Shown here: piece by piece, positions 2,762 to 8,925 of the stretch
Layout of the letters: each line of letters starts with the position of its first letter
Position numbering within the stretch: the stretch's first letter is position 1
Position numbers and translations under genes: made by a program
NCBI RefSeq assembly: GCF_000190435.1
Contig: NC_015152.1
Span: forward strand, 1,618,458-1,682,457
DNA from: Sphaerochaeta globosa str. Buddy
Lineage (GTDB): Bacteria; Spirochaetota; Spirochaetia; Sphaerochaetales; Sphaerochaetaceae
Length of the DNA: 64,000 nucleotides
Direction of reading: 5' to 3'
The notes under the pieces: model-generated
What the model saw: only the letters and a program-made list of their open reading frames with translations
Database searches by the model: none
Told to the model about the DNA's origin: nothing

Positions 2762-2782
2762 TTCCTACTATATTTATAGGTA

Positions 2783-2812
2783 TTGACCAAATCCTTTCTT
2801 TTGTGTTCTACT
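2783..2812 (+). promoter_or_regulatory. Promoter of the DUF3793-flavodoxin pair
   Basis: TTGACC (2783-2788), then a 17-18 base spacer to TTCTAC/TCTACT (2806-2812). The -35 is good and the -10 is poor, as is common for regulated promoters. The palindrome at 2821-2836 would cover the start of transcription. Confidence 0.5.
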
Positions 2813-2820
2813 ATGCAAGA

Positions 2821-2836
2821 GTTAGCATATGCTAAC
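2821..2836. promoter_or_regulatory. Perfect 16-bp palindrome over the start codon
   Basis: GTTAGCATATGCTAAC is identical to its reverse complement, and the ATG of the DUF3793 gene lies inside it (2829-2831). Half-sites of TTAG and CTAA recall DtxR/IdeR/MntR-type metal repressor operators. The position, just downstream of the promoter, suits repression. The identity of the repressor is inference. Confidence 0.6.
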
Positions 2837-3419
2837 CTACTATACATTGAGGAAAGCCGTGTCAGACGAACTTATCATACGTTTTGCATCTCCTACCTTG
2901 GCCGCGCTCAAGGTAGGTAGTTTAATCAGTTACCGCACTACAGATTTTGAAGCTTTGCATACGACCGTTGAGCAGTGGAACATTAAATTGAATCCTAAAG
3001 GCGTTGTTGTAACACTCCTGCAGCAAAAAAAAGATTTGTATTTGATGTATGTACATCGGCCCAACCTCTTGGAACACAAGTTGAAGCAGAAGGAAGTACA
3101 ACACATTCTCTGTCCCTTGGGGTATCCGATTTGTCCGCTCGCGGATTCAATTGAGCATCTCATGCACCGCTTGGACCATGAAGAACAGTTTCCCCATGAA
3201 ATCGGTCTCTTTTTGGGGTATCCGGCATCTGATGTACAAGCTTTTATCCGTAATAAGGGGTGTGACGGTAAATGTGATGGATGTTGGAAAGTGTATACGG
3301 ATGTCCAACAAGCAAAAAAGGTGTTCGCACAATATAAGAAATGTACCCGTCTCTACCTTGAGTTGCACCAGAAAGGAAAAAAACTAGAGGATTTGACGGT
3401 TCAAAGGAAACATATATGA
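2829..3419 (+). CDS. DUF3793 family protein
   Basis: 196 residues. The diagnostic region FPHEIGLFLGYPASDVQAFI (near 119-138), followed by a Gly/Cys segment and WKVY, matches DUF3793. This family is often found next to flavodoxins and iron or heme genes in anaerobes; its biochemical function is unknown. The C-terminal cysteines (CDGKCDGC) could hold a metal. It overlaps the flavodoxin start by 4 bases (ATGA), so the two are translationally coupled. The palindrome over its start codon suggests metal-dependent repression. Confidence 0.75.
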   Translation: MLTYYTLRKAVSDELIIRFASPTLAALKVGSLISYRTTDFEALHTTVEQWNIKLNPKGVVVTLLQQKKDLYLMYVHRPNLLEHKLKQKEVQHILCPLGYPICPLADSIEHLMHRLDHEEQFPHEIGLFLGYPASDVQAFIRNKGCDGKCDGCWKVYTDVQQAKKVFAQYKKCTRLYLELHQKGKKLEDLTVQRKHI

Positions 3420-3841
3420 AACAGATTGCAGTTGTCTATTATAGTGGAACAGGGAATACACAGGCGTTGGCCGATGCCGTTATCGAGGGTGTACGGGAAG
3501 CTGGAGCCTTTGCAAAAGTCATCAGCGCCGGTATGTTTTCAGCAGATATGCTGGACAGTTACGACGCCTTTGCCTTTGGGTGTCCTGCCATGGGCAGTGA
3601 AAGCTTGGAGGACGAGGTGTTTGAGCCGATGTTTGAATCGTTGTTGCCTCATCTCAGCGGAAAAACCGTCGCCCTGTTTGGTTCGTATGGCTGGGGTGAT
3701 GGTCAGTGGATGCGAGAGTGGCAGGAAACCACCCGTAAAAGCGGTGCGCTGCTGGCAGCAGAACCTGTAATTGCCGAGGACACTCCCGACCAAACAGCCT
3801 TGGCCGAGGCAAAAGCCTTAGGAGTTGCGCTTGGCCGCTAA
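3416..3841 (+). CDS. Flavodoxin
   Basis: 141 residues, a typical short-chain flavodoxin. The FMN phosphate loop is seen as YYSGTGNTQALA (near 8-19), with later FMN-contacting loops FGCPAMGSESLEDEVFEP and FGSYGWGDGQWM. It would carry electrons in place of ferredoxin, often when iron is short. AAAGGA precedes the ATG. It is coupled to DUF3793 upstream, which supports an iron-response unit. Its 3' end overlaps the convergent agmatinase gene by 24 bases. Confidence 0.9.
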   Translation: MKQIAVVYYSGTGNTQALADAVIEGVREAGAFAKVISAGMFSADMLDSYDAFAFGCPAMGSESLEDEVFEPMFESLLPHLSGKTVALFGSYGWGDGQWMREWQETTRKSGALLAAEPVIAEDTPDQTALAEAKALGVALGR

Positions 3842-4675
3842 GCCCATCAGGAAGTAGACGAGTTTACCAGCTGTATAGCTTGGGTGGTGGAGTTGATTGG
3901 GTGCAAGCTCCACCACATCCATGCCGATAATCGTCCTACCCTCGGTCAAGCTTTCCAACAGCGTGATGGCATCCCACCAGGATAGTCCACCTGGATCGGG
4001 GGTGCCGGTTGCGCTCATCAGCGAGGCGTCAAAACCATCCACATCGAAGGTTATATAGAGCTTTTTCGGGAACGTCGCAGGAAGCTGTAGCGTAGAGAGA
4101 TCCTTACAGCGATAGAGGTAGGATGCATCGTAATGCCCTACCTGATAGCGTTCTCTTGCGGCAAGGTCCTCTTCACTGAAATTCCTGATGCCTACCTGAA
4201 AAAGGGGTATACCCTTCTCCACCACCCTACGCATAACACAGGCGTGGCTGAGTTTACTCTCTTCATATGTATCGCGTAAATCCATATGGGCATCGAACTG
4301 CAATACCCCAACATCTTCATAGGAAAGCAGTAAATCGATGGCGGCATTGGTCACCGAATGCTCCCCACCCAAGAGAACAGGAATAGCATTACAGGTACGT
4401 GCATTGAGCATTGCCTTGCTTGCCCGCTCGATGGAGTCCTCACCGTTTTCACTCATTTCTACATTGAGGGTTGTATGAATGCCAAGCAGTCCCGGATTGC
4501 CGTAGCCTTCCACCAGTTGCTCCAATTGTCCGGAAGCCTCAATAATGGCAGATGGACCATGTTTGGTTCCACCCATGTAGGAGACAGTCTCCTCCAAGGG
4601 AAAAGGAATGACATGAAAGTGTGCCTTTTGGGGATCAGCATTGGGAAATTCCGAGTCAAGAAACCAATGTTCCAT
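3818..4675 (-). CDS. speB: Agmatinase (ureohydrolase family)
   Basis: 285 residues with the manganese-binding signatures of the arginase/agmatinase family: GGEHS, FDAHMDLRD and FDVDGFDAS. It would hydrolyse agmatine to putrescine and urea. Agmatinase rather than arginase is inferred from its place as last gene in an operon with arginine decarboxylase, carboxynorspermidine dehydrogenase and decarboxylase. GGAG lies before the ATG, and the gene starts 8 bases after nspC ends. Confidence 0.88.
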   Translation of the reverse strand: MEHWFLDSEFPNADPQKAHFHVIPFPLEETVSYMGGTKHGPSAIIEASGQLEQLVEGYGNPGLLGIHTTLNVEMSENGEDSIERASKAMLNARTCNAIPVLLGGEHSVTNAAIDLLLSYEDVGVLQFDAHMDLRDTYEESKLSHACVMRRVVEKGIPLFQVGIRNFSEEDLAARERYQVGHYDASYLYRCKDLSTLQLPATFPKKLYITFDVDGFDASLMSATGTPDPGGLSWWDAITLLESLTEGRTIIGMDVVELAPNQLHHPSYTAGKLVYFLMGLAAKRNS

Positions 4676-4683
4676 ACATTCTC

Positions 4684-5799
4684 CTACGATAATCGTCTTT
4701 GATAGTCATCAAAGCTGAACGTTTTGACAATCTGGTACAGCCCGTCTCGAACCATGCCGATGTCAGCAAGTGCAATACCGTTGAACATGGTAGTTTTTAC
4801 CATGGTGTAGTGCATCATGTCACACAAAAGAAGCGTATCACCTACTTTGGGTTGTTTCTTGAAGCGATACGAACCTACCCAATCGCCTGCCAGGCAGCTA
4901 CAGCCTCCCAGGCGGTACCCTCCCTCTTGGACGATTTCAGCTCCTACCACCTGAGGAGCATACGGCATTTCCAAACAATCGGGCATATGGGTGGCAAACG
5001 AGGTATCAAGCATCAGTGTGGTGATGCCTTGATTTTGTACGATATCAAGAATTCTGGTAGCCAAGTACCCTGTTTCCCAGACAAACGCCGCCCCGGGTTC
5101 CAGATACAGCTGAATATGGGGATGACGCATACAGAAGGATGAGAGGACGGCCTTGAACAGCTCAAGGTCATAGCCCTTTTTGGTTACCAGATGCCCGCCA
5201 CCAAGGTTGAGCCAAGAAATGGAAGGAAGCAAATGCCCATAGTGTTTTTCGATGGAAACCAGGGTTTGCTCAAGATCATGCGCCGTGCTCTCACAAAGGT
5301 TGTGTGAATGCAGGCCGCTCAAGCCTTCAGGGAGTGTCGGCAACGCTTGGGGAAGGACACCCAGGCGTGAACCGATCGCACAGGGGTCGTAAAGTTCTGT
5401 TTCAACTGCAGAATACAGTGGATTGATTCTCAGACCTTTGCTGGCTCTTGGGCAGTCTTTCGTATGTTTCTCATACTCATTGAGGGAATTGAAGGTAATA
5501 TGCTTGGCAATCCTGGCAATGGTCTCGAACTCACGGTCTTGATACACCGGAGCATACGCATGCACTTCTGAAAAGTAAGGAGAAGCGAGGAGAGCCTCAT
5601 TGAGTGAGGATATGGTTGCCCCGCATGCAGAAGCCGCCAGCTCTGGAAAAACAGAGTGCATGGCAAAACCCTTGAGTGCGAAGAGAAATTTGACCGGCAC
5701 CTGATCTTGCAGTTGCTTGATAAGGGCAAGGTTTTTTTGTAAGGCTTCATACTCCAGCACAAAGGCTGGAGTATGGGATATCTGCTTGGTATCGATCAT
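4684..5799 (-). CDS. nspC: Carboxy(nor)spermidine decarboxylase
   Basis: 371 residues, fold III PLP-dependent decarboxylase. The PLP lysine is in FALKGF (near residue 44), the glycine loop is LNLGGGHLV, and the C-terminal Cys-box reads GCSCLAGD, typical of NspC. It decarboxylates carboxyspermidine to spermidine, or carboxynorspermidine to norspermidine. With agmatinase making putrescine in the same operon, spermidine is the likelier product. It starts 4 bases after the dehydrogenase gene stops. Confidence 0.9.
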   Translation of the reverse strand: MIDTKQISHTPAFVLEYEALQKNLALIKQLQDQVPVKFLFALKGFAMHSVFPELAASACGATISSLNEALLASPYFSEVHAYAPVYQDREFETIARIAKHITFNSLNEYEKHTKDCPRASKGLRINPLYSAVETELYDPCAIGSRLGVLPQALPTLPEGLSGLHSHNLCESTAHDLEQTLVSIEKHYGHLLPSISWLNLGGGHLVTKKGYDLELFKAVLSSFCMRHPHIQLYLEPGAAFVWETGYLATRILDIVQNQGITTLMLDTSFATHMPDCLEMPYAPQVVGAEIVQEGGYRLGGCSCLAGDWVGSYRFKKQPKVGDTLLLCDMMHYTMVKTTMFNGIALADIGMVRDGLYQIVKTFSFDDYQRRLS

Positions 5800-5802
5800 G
5801 CT

Positions 5803-7008
5803 CTATTTTCCAAAGGCAAGCTTGCCATCTACAACGACTTCCCAGGGAAGACCCATTTTCCCGAGTTCTGCAAGGAACGGGTCGGGGTCAAACTGCTCCA
5901 TGTTCCATACCCCTGGTGCATTCCAAATTCCTCTTGCAACCAAACTGGCACCAAGGGCTGCAGGAACTCCTGTGGTATAGGAGACTGCCTGTGCTTTGGT
6001 ATCCTGATAAGCCATCTGATGACTGCAGTTGTTGAAAATAAAAAAGGTGCGTTCCTTTCCATCCTTCACTCCCCTGATCTGACAACCGATGGAAGTCTGG
6101 CCTTGATAGTTGGGGCCAAGCGAGGAAGGCTCGGGAAGCACTGCCTTCAGGAACTGAAGAGGTTGTATTTCCATACCCTGATACTCGATCGGTTTGATAC
6201 TAGTCATGCCGACCTCCTCAAGGACCCTCAAAAAGGTGATGTATTGCTGACTGAACGTCATCCAGAAGCGGGCACGCTTGAGGGTGGGGTAATGCATCAC
6301 CAGTGATTCCAGTTCTTCGTGGAAGAGGAGATAGCTCTCCTTCGAACCTACCCGCGGATAGTCTACATTCTGGTGAATTTCTAGCGGTTCTGTTTCCAGC
6401 CACTCACCCTTCTCATAATACTTTCCGTTCTGGGTAATTTCCCGTATATTTATTTCTGGATTGAAGTTGGTTGCAAAACTCTTGCCATGGTCGCCGGCAT
6501 TGCAATCTACAATATCAAGATAGTGCATCTCGTCAAAGTAATGCTTGGCGGCATACGAGGTAAACACATTGGTTACCCCGGGGTCGAAACCCGAGCCAAG
6601 CAGAGCGGTCAAGCCGGCCTTTTCAAATTTTTCCCTGAATGCCCATTGCCACGAGTATTCAAAATGCGCCACATCTTTGGGTTCGTAGTTTGCAGTATCC
6701 ACATAGTGCACTCCACACTCCAGGCAGGCCTGCATAATAGTAAGGTCCTGATACGGAAGGGCTACATTGAGCAATACATCCGCCTTGAAATTCCTGATAA
6801 GGGAAACAAGGGCTTGCACATCGTCTGCATCCACCTCTGCTGTGCGGATGGGAACAGGTCCTGCTTCCTTGGCGATGGCGTCACACTTTGCCTTGGTTCT
6901 GCTGGCGAGCAATATCTCTTCATAGAGGTCTTCCATGCGTGCGGACTTGCGCACTGCAACATTGCCAACTCCCCCAGCACCAATAATTATCAATCGTTTC
7001 TTGTTCAT
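5803..7008 (-). CDS. Carboxy(nor)spermidine dehydrogenase (saccharopine dehydrogenase family)
   Basis: 401 residues. The Rossmann motif GAGGVGNVAV is at residues 10-19, followed by the saccharopine dehydrogenase-like segment GSGFDPGVTNVFTSYA near residue 138. The enzyme condenses putrescine (or diaminopropane) with aspartate semialdehyde and reduces the imine with NADPH. Function is assigned from family and from position directly before nspC. AGGAG precedes the ATG and the gene begins 4 bases after speA ends. Confidence 0.88.
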   Translation of the reverse strand: MNKKRLIIIGAGGVGNVAVRKSARMEDLYEEILLASRTKAKCDAIAKEAGPVPIRTAEVDADDVQALVSLIRNFKADVLLNVALPYQDLTIMQACLECGVHYVDTANYEPKDVAHFEYSWQWAFREKFEKAGLTALLGSGFDPGVTNVFTSYAAKHYFDEMHYLDIVDCNAGDHGKSFATNFNPEINIREITQNGKYYEKGEWLETEPLEIHQNVDYPRVGSKESYLLFHEELESLVMHYPTLKRARFWMTFSQQYITFLRVLEEVGMTSIKPIEYQGMEIQPLQFLKAVLPEPSSLGPNYQGQTSIGCQIRGVKDGKERTFFIFNNCSHQMAYQDTKAQAVSYTTGVPAALGASLVARGIWNAPGVWNMEQFDPDPFLAELGKMGLPWEVVVDGKLAFGK

Positions 7009-7011
7009 CCC

Positions 7012-8925
7012 TTACTCCTCTTGGTCGGTCTCGTAATAGGTATACCCCCTCAAGCCAGCAGTATAGGCTGAGATGATCCGTCTTCTTTCCTGTACCGTAA
7101 TCCTACCCTCTTGTACTGCCTTTTCCGCCTTGGTACGAATCATGGCCTCAAGGCGTTTCGGCTCATACTCCACGTAGCTGAGCACATCGGCAACCGTATC
7201 CCCTTCCAGCTCATTGTGCAAACTGAATGTTCCATCGTCATCATACGTGATGGAAACTACATTGGTATCCCCAAGCAGGTTGTGCAAATCCCCTAAAGTC
7301 TCCTGATAAGCCCCCACCAAGAAAACACCTAGAATGTAATCCTCATCTTCTGTCAGGCTGTGAAGCGGCAAGGTGTTGGAGACGCCTGAGCTGGTAATGA
7401 ACTTGTCGATTTTTCCTTCGCTATCACAGGTGATATCGGACAATACCGCCTTGCGTTCCGGTTTGGTATCCAAACGATGGATCGGCATAATGGGAAACAT
7501 CTGGTCGATGGCCCATACATCGGGAAGCGATTGGAACAAGCTGAAATTCCCGTAATAGATATCGGAAAGTTGGTGCTCCAGCTTCTGTATTTCGGAAGAG
7601 TGAATATCGCCATACTTTTGCTGGATCTCAGCGATGATCGACCAATATACATGTTCTGCAGCGGCCCGCTCGCGCATGTTCACCTTGCCGTACAAAAATT
7701 TATTGCGATTTTCCTCGCGATAATAATTCAAGTCATTCAGACATTCCTGGGCATTCTTTTCGTTGAGCATGGTCCGTACATACAAGAGGTTCTCCAAGGC
7801 GGGCATCATAGCATCGTCGTAGACATCCTCTTCGCTGTTCTTCCCATCCCAGAATACATTGGTATCGAGAATGTTCATCAACAGAACCGAATAGTAGGAG
7901 ACAAGAGCCCTTCCCGACTCACTGATGAGCGTTGGATGGGGAATGTTTTCTTCCTTGCAGATGGTCATGATTTCCTCAACCACGTCATCACAATACTCTT
8001 TGGTTGAATAGTTTCGACTGTTTGAACTGTTTGAGTGACTGCCATCATAATCGATGGCCAAGCCGCCTCCCATATCCAACAATCCCATGGCAGCACCTTC
8101 GTGTACCAACCCTGCATAGAACCGAGCGGCTTCGGTTGCGCCGACACGAATATCGTGAATGTTGGGAATTTGGCTTCCCAGATGGTAGTGCAACAGTTTC
8201 AGGCAATCCAACATATTCTCTTTGCGAAGCCGGTCTACAACTTGGACGACCTGCGTGGTATTCAGTCCGAAAACGCTGCGGTCCCCACCGCTGTCCGTCC
8301 AATGGCCGCTTGCCATGGTTGAGGGTTTCATACGTAGGCCGATGTTCGGCTTAATACCCAACGCCCGTGATCGCTGGAGGATGATCCCGACTTCTCCGGG
8401 CATTTCCACAACCAGCACAGTCTGAATACCCAGTTGCAATCCTTTGAGCGCAAGATCTATATACTCTTCATCCTTATACCCATTGCAAATGACATACGCC
8501 TCAGGATCATCAATATGGGCCAAGGCTATAATGAGTTCGGCTTTGCTGCCGGTTTCCAACCCATGATGGTACTGCTGCCCATATTTGCAAATTTCCTCGA
8601 CTACCTGTTGTTGTTGGTTCACCTTTATCGGATACACACCGCGATAGGTTCCCTGGTATCCGGCATCCTTGATTGCATTCAGGAAACTCTCATTGATATG
8701 CTGGATGCGGTCATCCAAAATATTGGAAAAACGAAGGAGAACGGGAAGTTTCATCCCTCGTTCCTGCAGCCCCTTGGCGATGGAGAGCAAGCTTATGGAG
8801 GACTGTGGTGACTTGTCCTTCAACCTTACTTCTACTTCCCCGGTATCTGCTATATGGAAATAGCCGTTTCCCCAATCATTGATTCGGTATAGCTTTTCTG
8901 CATCTTTGATTTTCCAGTTCTGCAT
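7012..8925 (-). CDS. speA: Biosynthetic arginine decarboxylase
   Basis: 637 residues, the usual length of SpeA. The PLP-lysine segment GVYPIKVNQQQQVVEEI is near residues 98-114, followed by LLHYHLGSQIPNI, the glycine-rich LLDMGGGLAIDYDGS and a late SESGRALVS. It converts arginine to agmatine in the cytoplasm. First gene of a four-gene operon that continues with carboxynorspermidine dehydrogenase, nspC and agmatinase. AGGGAG lies 6 bases before the ATG, and an extended -10 promoter lies upstream. Confidence 0.95.
   Translation of the reverse strand: MQNWKIKDAEKLYRINDWGNGYFHIADTGEVEVRLKDKSPQSSISLLSIAKGLQERGMKLPVLLRFSNILDDRIQHINESFLNAIKDAGYQGTYRGVYPIKVNQQQQVVEEICKYGQQYHHGLETGSKAELIIALAHIDDPEAYVICNGYKDEEYIDLALKGLQLGIQTVLVVEMPGEVGIILQRSRALGIKPNIGLRMKPSTMASGHWTDSGGDRSVFGLNTTQVVQVVDRLRKENMLDCLKLLHYHLGSQIPNIHDIRVGATEAARFYAGLVHEGAAMGLLDMGGGLAIDYDGSHSNSSNSRNYSTKEYCDDVVEEIMTICKEENIPHPTLISESGRALVSYYSVLLMNILDTNVFWDGKNSEEDVYDDAMMPALENLLYVRTMLNEKNAQECLNDLNYYREENRNKFLYGKVNMRERAAAEHVYWSIIAEIQQKYGDIHSSEIQKLEHQLSDIYYGNFSLFQSLPDVWAIDQMFPIMPIHRLDTKPERKAVLSDITCDSEGKIDKFITSSGVSNTLPLHSLTEDEDYILGVFLVGAYQETLGDLHNLLGDTNVVSITYDDDGTFSLHNELEGDTVADVLSYVEYEPKRLEAMIRTKAEKAVQEGRITVQERRRIISAYTAGLRGYTYYETDQEE

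Follow-up and report, generated by a model that had tools for sequence, protein, structure and literature searches.

A conserved GTTAGN6CTAAC palindrome in the leader of a DUF3793-flavodoxin operon is a predicted DtxR/MntR-family operator of an iron-starvation regulon

The stretch of Sphaerochaeta globosa str. Buddy DNA analyzed here (the window; 64,000 nucleotides) carries a gene of the DUF3793 family followed by a gene for a short-chain flavodoxin (fld) (Table 1). Because the flavodoxin gene overlaps the DUF3793 stop codon, the two genes probably form one operon; matches of the flavodoxin gene to NF004049 and TIGR01753 fall below the cut-offs of those models. A polyamine-like cluster adjoins the operon on the minus strand (positions 3818-8925), and its ORFs were named by reading as agmatinase-like, carboxynorspermidine-decarboxylase-like, dehydrogenase, and arginine-decarboxylase-like; similar ORFs lie beside the operon in three other genomes (G055, G086, and G002).

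Upstream of both genes lies GTTAGCATATGCTAAC, which an initial annotation of this DNA had described as a perfect 16-bp palindrome. The symmetry is indeed exact, the sequence occurs once in the window, and the window holds no other perfect 16-bp palindrome of whatever sequence. In 60 runs of a first-order Markov model of the same composition, perfect 16-bp palindromes arose at a mean of 0.78 per 64 kb (maximum, 4). Since about 0.8 are expected per 64 kb, the symmetry by itself does not exceed chance, and the significance of the element therefore depends on comparison between loci.

Table 1. Features of the DUF3793-flavodoxin operon and its leader (positions in the window)
Feature	Position	Strand	Basis or remark
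Imperfect inverted repeat CCTACTATATTTATAGG	2764..2780	.	Directly upstream of the -35 element; sequence comparison
-35 element TTGACC	2783..2788	+	Best promoter match by script; TTGACC also in the G049, G002, and G083 orthologues
-10 element TCTACT, 18-bp spacer, weak	2807..2812	+	Unlisted by a stricter promoter scan
Alternative -10 element TACTAT	2809-2814	+	
Predicted operator GTTAGCATATGCTAAC, consensus GTTAGN6CTAAC	2821..2836	.	Predicted DtxR/MntR-family repressor site; overlies the expected transcription start
Shine-Dalgarno-like GAGGA, 5 nt before GTG	2849..2853	+	Sequence; shared by four species of the genus
DUF3793 gene, likely start GTG 2859, not ATG 2829	2859..3419	+	PF12672, E=4.9e-53
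Short-chain flavodoxin gene	3416..3841	+	PF00258, E=4.1e-14

The palindrome contains an ATG (2829-2831) in frame with DUF3793, and the initial annotation took it to span the start codon, with the operator forming part of the coding sequence. Comparison of the leaders of four species of the genus rules out a coding operator. In G049, TGG takes the place of the ATG; in two other species the palindrome and the GTG are separated by an in-frame TAA, which lies 27 nt (G002) or 15 nt (G083) upstream of the GTG. In all four species, GTGTCAGA and GAGGAA are identical, and a GTG that is preceded by GAGGAA and opens GTG-TCA-GA follows the first base of the site by 38 to 40 nt. In the ATG-initiated ORF, the Pfam domain begins at residue 16, which is residue 6 counted from the GTG. 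Since orthologues have in-frame stops or lack the ATG, GTG 2859 is the likely start of DUF3793, and the predicted operator lies in the leader, outside the coding sequence.

The palindrome was also said to sit just after a promoter, which is plausible: TTGACC, an 18-bp spacer, and TCTACT precede it, and 8 bp separate the -10 element from its first base. The match of this promoter is weak (9/12); orthologous DUF3793 promoters score 9 to 10, and the feoA promoters of the genus, which are considered below, score 11/12. At the promoters of DUF3793 and feoA in the genus, the site lies 6 to 10 bp past the -10 element, and at fld-only promoters 12 to 13 bp past it. By promoter matching, no clear promoter was found before the feoB sites, and the sites between dtxR and feoAB have a spacing to the promoter unlike that at the DUF3793 and feoA sites. 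The inverted repeat CCTACTATATTTATAGG has a near-identical counterpart in G049 (CCTACTATTATTATAGG) and none in G083; it may bind a second regulator or serve as an AT-rich upstream element.

We next consider conservation upstream of DUF3793. In the family to which S. globosa belongs, 39 of 100 genomes encode DUF3793, and 30 loci were examined. Exact GTTAGN6CTAAC lies no more than 400 bp upstream of the gene at 27 of these loci, and at 29 when one mismatch is allowed. The phylum sample comprised 296 genomes, 68 of them with DUF3793; 63 of the places read in it lie outside the family set, and the exact site is present in 38 of these (26/27 in family f24, 11/31 in f3, 1/1 in f30, 0/3 in f10, and 0/1 in G022 of the S. 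globosa family). This count leaves out five loci of the S. globosa family that belong to the family set, takes once a genome present twice (G364; L143 and L237), and scores as misses a fragment (L238) and a gene copy with stop codons (L236); the sites of two loci whose gene starts were misplaced at a contig end (L157 and L160) are counted in the family and phylum readings. The copy in L236 (G182:C8) contains four stop codons, and the copies of its relatives are open. Absence of the palindrome from orthologous loci, which the initial annotation had set against its own proposal, is therefore not what we find, although exact sites are sparse in f3.

Beyond the phylum, a genome scan yielded 581 loci, of which the best 80 were read; 79 of these are not labelled spirochaetal and most are, by title, from Clostridia, Lachnospiraceae, Oscillospiraceae, or Ruminococcus. 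The exact site stands within 400 bp in 58 of these best 80 loci and, with one mismatch, in 66, compared with 22 (exact) and 42 (one mismatch) of 1,383 control windows from the same loci. The remaining 14 were read to 900 bp, where 3 loci carry exact and 4 carry one-mismatch sites; sites between 400 and 900 bp were not counted because one-mismatch sites occur in 176 of 1,600 random 520-bp windows. A plasmid search returned no match.

When half-sites of all palindromes of the form 5-6-5 were tallied over 139 DUF3793 loci (omitting L157, at a contig end), GTTAG was present in 111 and the runner-up in 19, and GTTAG/CTAAC at other gaps from 0 to 14 bp appeared in at most 4. The ten arm bases keep their identity across two phyla and the middle six vary; the commonest one-mismatch form at loci without an exact site is GTTAGN6CTAAT. 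At many loci the site is present twice, the second copy being some 30 to 110 bp further from the gene than the first, and in many there are further copies about 100 to 400 bp upstream of the gene. These sequence comparisons show that the palindrome is genuine and is conserved widely as a DNA site.

The initial annotation had placed the palindrome in an iron context and advised a search for it before iron genes. Both suggestions are borne out by the S. globosa genome, in which the three exact sites precede feoA and feoB (of one feoAAB operon) and DUF3793-fld. Across seven genomes of the genus, every one of the 20 sites considered lies before feoA, feoB, DUF3793, fld, or an ABC transporter gene; the three unannotated sites of G059 are outside this count, and the first feoA of L070, L072, L073, and L078, hidden by a longer overlapping ORF, was read from context. 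The ABC transporter gene preceded by the G086 site adjoins a ZIP transporter gene. The number of sites carries no signal: the eight genomes hold 23 in total versus 49 for a reversed-pattern control, and a scan of the S. globosa genome for near matches to TTAGCATATGCTAA with three mismatches was too noisy, with 87 sites versus 144 in the control. The signal is the position of the sites. In three genomes with no match to DUF3793 (G055, G086, and G037), the site is retained upstream of fld; it is thus tied to the operon rather than to its first gene. The gene content of the best 80 of the 581 scanned loci includes flavodoxin in 55, feoB in 20, DtxR in 11, and Fur in 1. The noisy scan for near matches also gave a two-mismatch site in L004 that, by reading of the sequence, lies across the boundary between feoA and feoB in the second feo operon.

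Exact sites were also observed before ABC transporter genes that encode membrane and ATPase parts in one chain, in genomes of the family and in treponeme-like genomes; three were confirmed by Pfam (L354, L357, and L074) and two were identified by reading (L356, with a TetR gene close by, and L360). These ABC transporter genes are probable further members of the predicted regulon. In G264, whose genus lacks the site upstream of DUF3793, three exact sites were found, and every one of them precedes an ABC-transporter-like ORF; two of these ORFs are Pfam confirmed. At positions 1171-1221 of L362 (G007), two tandem exact sites precede a methyltransferase gene, and a TetR gene adjoins it.

To identify candidate regulators, we searched for the PF01325 (DtxR) and PF01475 (Fur) families. 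The half-sites had been likened to DtxR/IdeR/MntR operators, with the advice to look for a DtxR-family gene, and S. globosa encodes one such protein over the cut-off, as well as two Fur-family genes. An operator-like site served by a DtxR/MntR-type regulator is supported by gene order. In S. globosa, dtxR and a second feoAB operon diverge, and the region between them, like that in other species of the genus, contains a one-mismatch site (GTTTGN6CTAAC when read towards feoA). Among the 31 dtxR loci examined (30 among the matches listed for the search, plus that of S. globosa), 16 carry, in the 350 bp upstream, a site with no more than one mismatch (exact in 1), and 13 of these have feoAB beside it. 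DtxR without detected Fur occurs in nine family genomes, five of which (G006 to G010) were scanned; in four of them the exact site stands before feoAAB, and in three of those four it lies between feoAAB and a divergent dtxR. The fifth, G010, had no site in the genome scan. L348, a locus labelled Clostridia, runs feoB-feoA-feoA, two sites, dtxR, two sites, DUF3793. We name DtxR rather than Fur mainly because this adjacency of dtxR, site, and feo genes recurs in separate lineages.

The mere presence of either regulator does not discriminate between them at the scale of the phylum. DtxR is found in the genomes of 37 of the 38 phylum places with an exact site, and Fur-family genes in all 38. One genome (G250, 88% complete) has the site and Fur with no detected DtxR, and in one of the family (G072, 63% complete) that has the site, neither regulator was found. 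DtxR was not detected in nine family genomes, of which the three scanned (G012, G013, and G030) contain 0, 0, and 1 sites, the one being inside an ORF; this is weak evidence, because these three may lack feo genes. The E-value limit of 1e-80 in the FeoB search missed FeoB also in G006, G008, and G009, which do encode it. The HMMs for both regulators derive from spirochaete sequences, and clostridial genes for either may escape them.

Taking together its conservation, its position relative to promoters, its target genes, and its co-location with dtxR and not with fur, we consider it likely that the palindrome is the operator of a metal-activated repressor of the DtxR/MntR family that governs an iron-starvation regulon. 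From these observations, we infer binding by the DtxR protein, repression, and the identity of the metal.

Operation of the site by a Fur-family repressor (Fur, PerR, or Zur) is unlikely. One report describes fldX and feo of Clostridioides difficile as Fur regulated (PMC6311696), and the two S. globosa Fur genes, the Fur-family genes in 88 of the 100 family genomes and in the genomes of every exact-site phylum place, and five g24 genomes in which DtxR but not Fur was detected and DUF3793 is not preceded by an exact site would all fit such a repressor. A Fur regulon would pair the site with fur genes and lose it where Fur is missing; however, the site was found at none of 32 fur loci (30 among the matches listed, plus those of S. 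globosa), feo genes adjoin fur at none of these, and four of the five Fur-undetected genomes described above (G006 to G009) carry the site before feoAAB. Fur boxes are built on GATAAT repeats, unlike GTTAG, which also counts against this reading. Even in L309, the one clostridial-type locus with a Fur gene near DUF3793, the operon, which there begins with fld, is preceded by a one-mismatch GTTAG site, and a Fur-box match with up to 4 mismatches was not found. A different dimeric regulator (of the MarR, Rrf2, or another family) that shares the iron regulon would be compatible with a regulator search confined to two Pfam families; yet the order dtxR-site-feoAAB, repeated in separate genera and in a clostridial locus, points to DtxR, and we regard such a regulator as quite improbable.

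Two further readings dispense with a repressor. Placed 22 nt ahead of the start codon, in what is presumed to be the 5' untranslated region, the palindrome could form a short stem and act at the mRNA level, as a hairpin in the leader close to the ribosome-binding site. A stem would not account for ten arm bases conserved in identity over two phyla around six variable ones, and copies located far upstream of the gene or between divergent genes are those expected of a DNA site, so this reading is very doubtful. That the palindrome is a chance occurrence without function is hardly credible: one is expected about as often as it is seen in 64 kb, but the same ten bases at the same gap recur in 111 of 139 DUF3793 loci from two phyla. 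It is this between-locus comparison, and not symmetry, that disposes of chance.

The predicted repressor of the DtxR/MntR family (G000:C1:1012769-1012930) is 125 aa long and matches PF01325, the DNA-binding domain at the N terminus (E=3.6e-13), and PF02742, the domain for metal binding and dimerization (E=1.7e-15), both over the cut-off, with no domain of the DtxR type beyond these two. Alignment to MntR places metal ligands at D7, E10, H76, C99, E102, and H103; the positions of MntR D8, E11, H77, E99, E102, and H103 are thus all occupied by ligands, with Cys replacing Glu99. According to PMC2628430, C102 of DtxR aligns to this C99, where the manganese-sensing MntR has Glu, and DtxR has Met where MntR and the present regulator have Asp. 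The C..EH signature is found in 29 of the 32 DtxR ORFs of the dtxR loci. Among solved and named relatives, the regulator is closest to MntR (2h09, E=6.1e-15), with scores that remain below the NCBIfam MntR cut-offs (NF008273, 101.4 bits versus 153; NF003025, 70.9 versus 138). Because of the target genes and the Cys, Fe2+ is favored as the metal sensed; Mn2+ is possible because of the Asp at the MntR D8 position and a sequence nearer to MntR than to DtxR.

We propose the following switch. At abundant Fe2+ (possibly Mn2+), a repressor dimer carrying the metal would occupy GTTAGN6CTAAC directly downstream of the -10 element and block RNA polymerase. Under iron shortage, the repressor would release the site, and the FeoAAB ferrous-iron importer, flavodoxin, and DUF3793 would be made; flavodoxin could then replace ferredoxin. 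In C. difficile, flavodoxin is described in two reports as strongly induced by iron shortage and has been proposed to replace ferredoxin (PMC10913485, PMC6311696).

The conserved site most likely ties DUF3793 to the iron-shortage response in two bacterial phyla. On balance, and with more reserve than for the operator itself, we favor a broader picture in which Spirochaetota and Clostridia share a DtxR-family iron regulon that does the usual job of Fur, with an operator class of its own (GTTAG-N6-CTAAC), short proteins with hybrid MntR/DtxR metal sites, and DUF3793 as a core member and iron-starvation partner of flavodoxin. The predicted structure of DUF3793 is of high confidence (pLDDT 95.8, pTM 0.90), but no function follows from the fold, as there is no clear match among solved structures (no Foldseek match at E 0.001; no VIA-align 2 Z above 5.0). 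Invariant in 41 sequences are PHE, GxFLGYP, GxWK, and one Cys. This family without a known role thereby gains a testable physiological setting, iron shortage beside flavodoxin, and GTTAGN6CTAAC provides a ready search pattern for the iron regulon in many gut anaerobes and spirochaetes. In a search of openly accessible literature, no paper linking DUF3793 with iron was found, the sole paper with the DUF3793 name concerning a fungus; the GTTAG-N6-CTAAC motif, in four spellings, was not found in print in the same literature. Apart from those on TroR, no title among the matches listed concerns a regulon of this kind in either spirochaetes or Clostridia.

TroR of Treponema denticola and Treponema pallidum comes from the same phylum and belongs to the same regulator family. 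It is described as a metal-dependent repressor that acts over a dyad-symmetric, 18-bp operator and controls troABCDR (PMC2628430). We compared the two by residues and targets; TroR has Asn and Glu where the regulator described here has Asp and Cys. MntR supplies the closest solved and named relatives and shares the short form and the Asp at the D8 position, whereas the present regulator has Cys for Glu99, iron-gene neighbors, and scores below the MntR cut-offs. The C. difficile fldX and feo genes resemble the operons studied here in that flavodoxin and Feo are made under iron shortage, but the regulator there is Fur and the operator a Fur box (PMC6311696, PMC10913485). A flavodoxin is also paired with a small protein of unknown function in the fldA-DUF2023 operon of Bacteroidota, for which one report describes strong induction by iron shortage (PMC10434189); the partner family there is DUF2023, and here it is DUF3793.

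Another parallel in protein family and mode of action is with actinobacterial DtxR/IdeR (Corynebacterium and Mycobacterium), which are metal-activated repressors of the same family with Cys at the C102 position. Their targets and form differ from those found here, where the predicted regulon comprises feoAAB and DUF3793-fld and the protein has 125 aa and no domain beyond PF01325 and PF02742. The actinobacterial 19-bp DtxR box holds GTTAG and CTAAC arms one base apart. In the 16-bp site described here, the arms are 6 bp apart, a gap found in 111 of 139 loci, while the 1-bp gap is found in none. Because the arms are common to both and the spacing differs, we set this predicted operator apart from the actinobacterial DtxR box.
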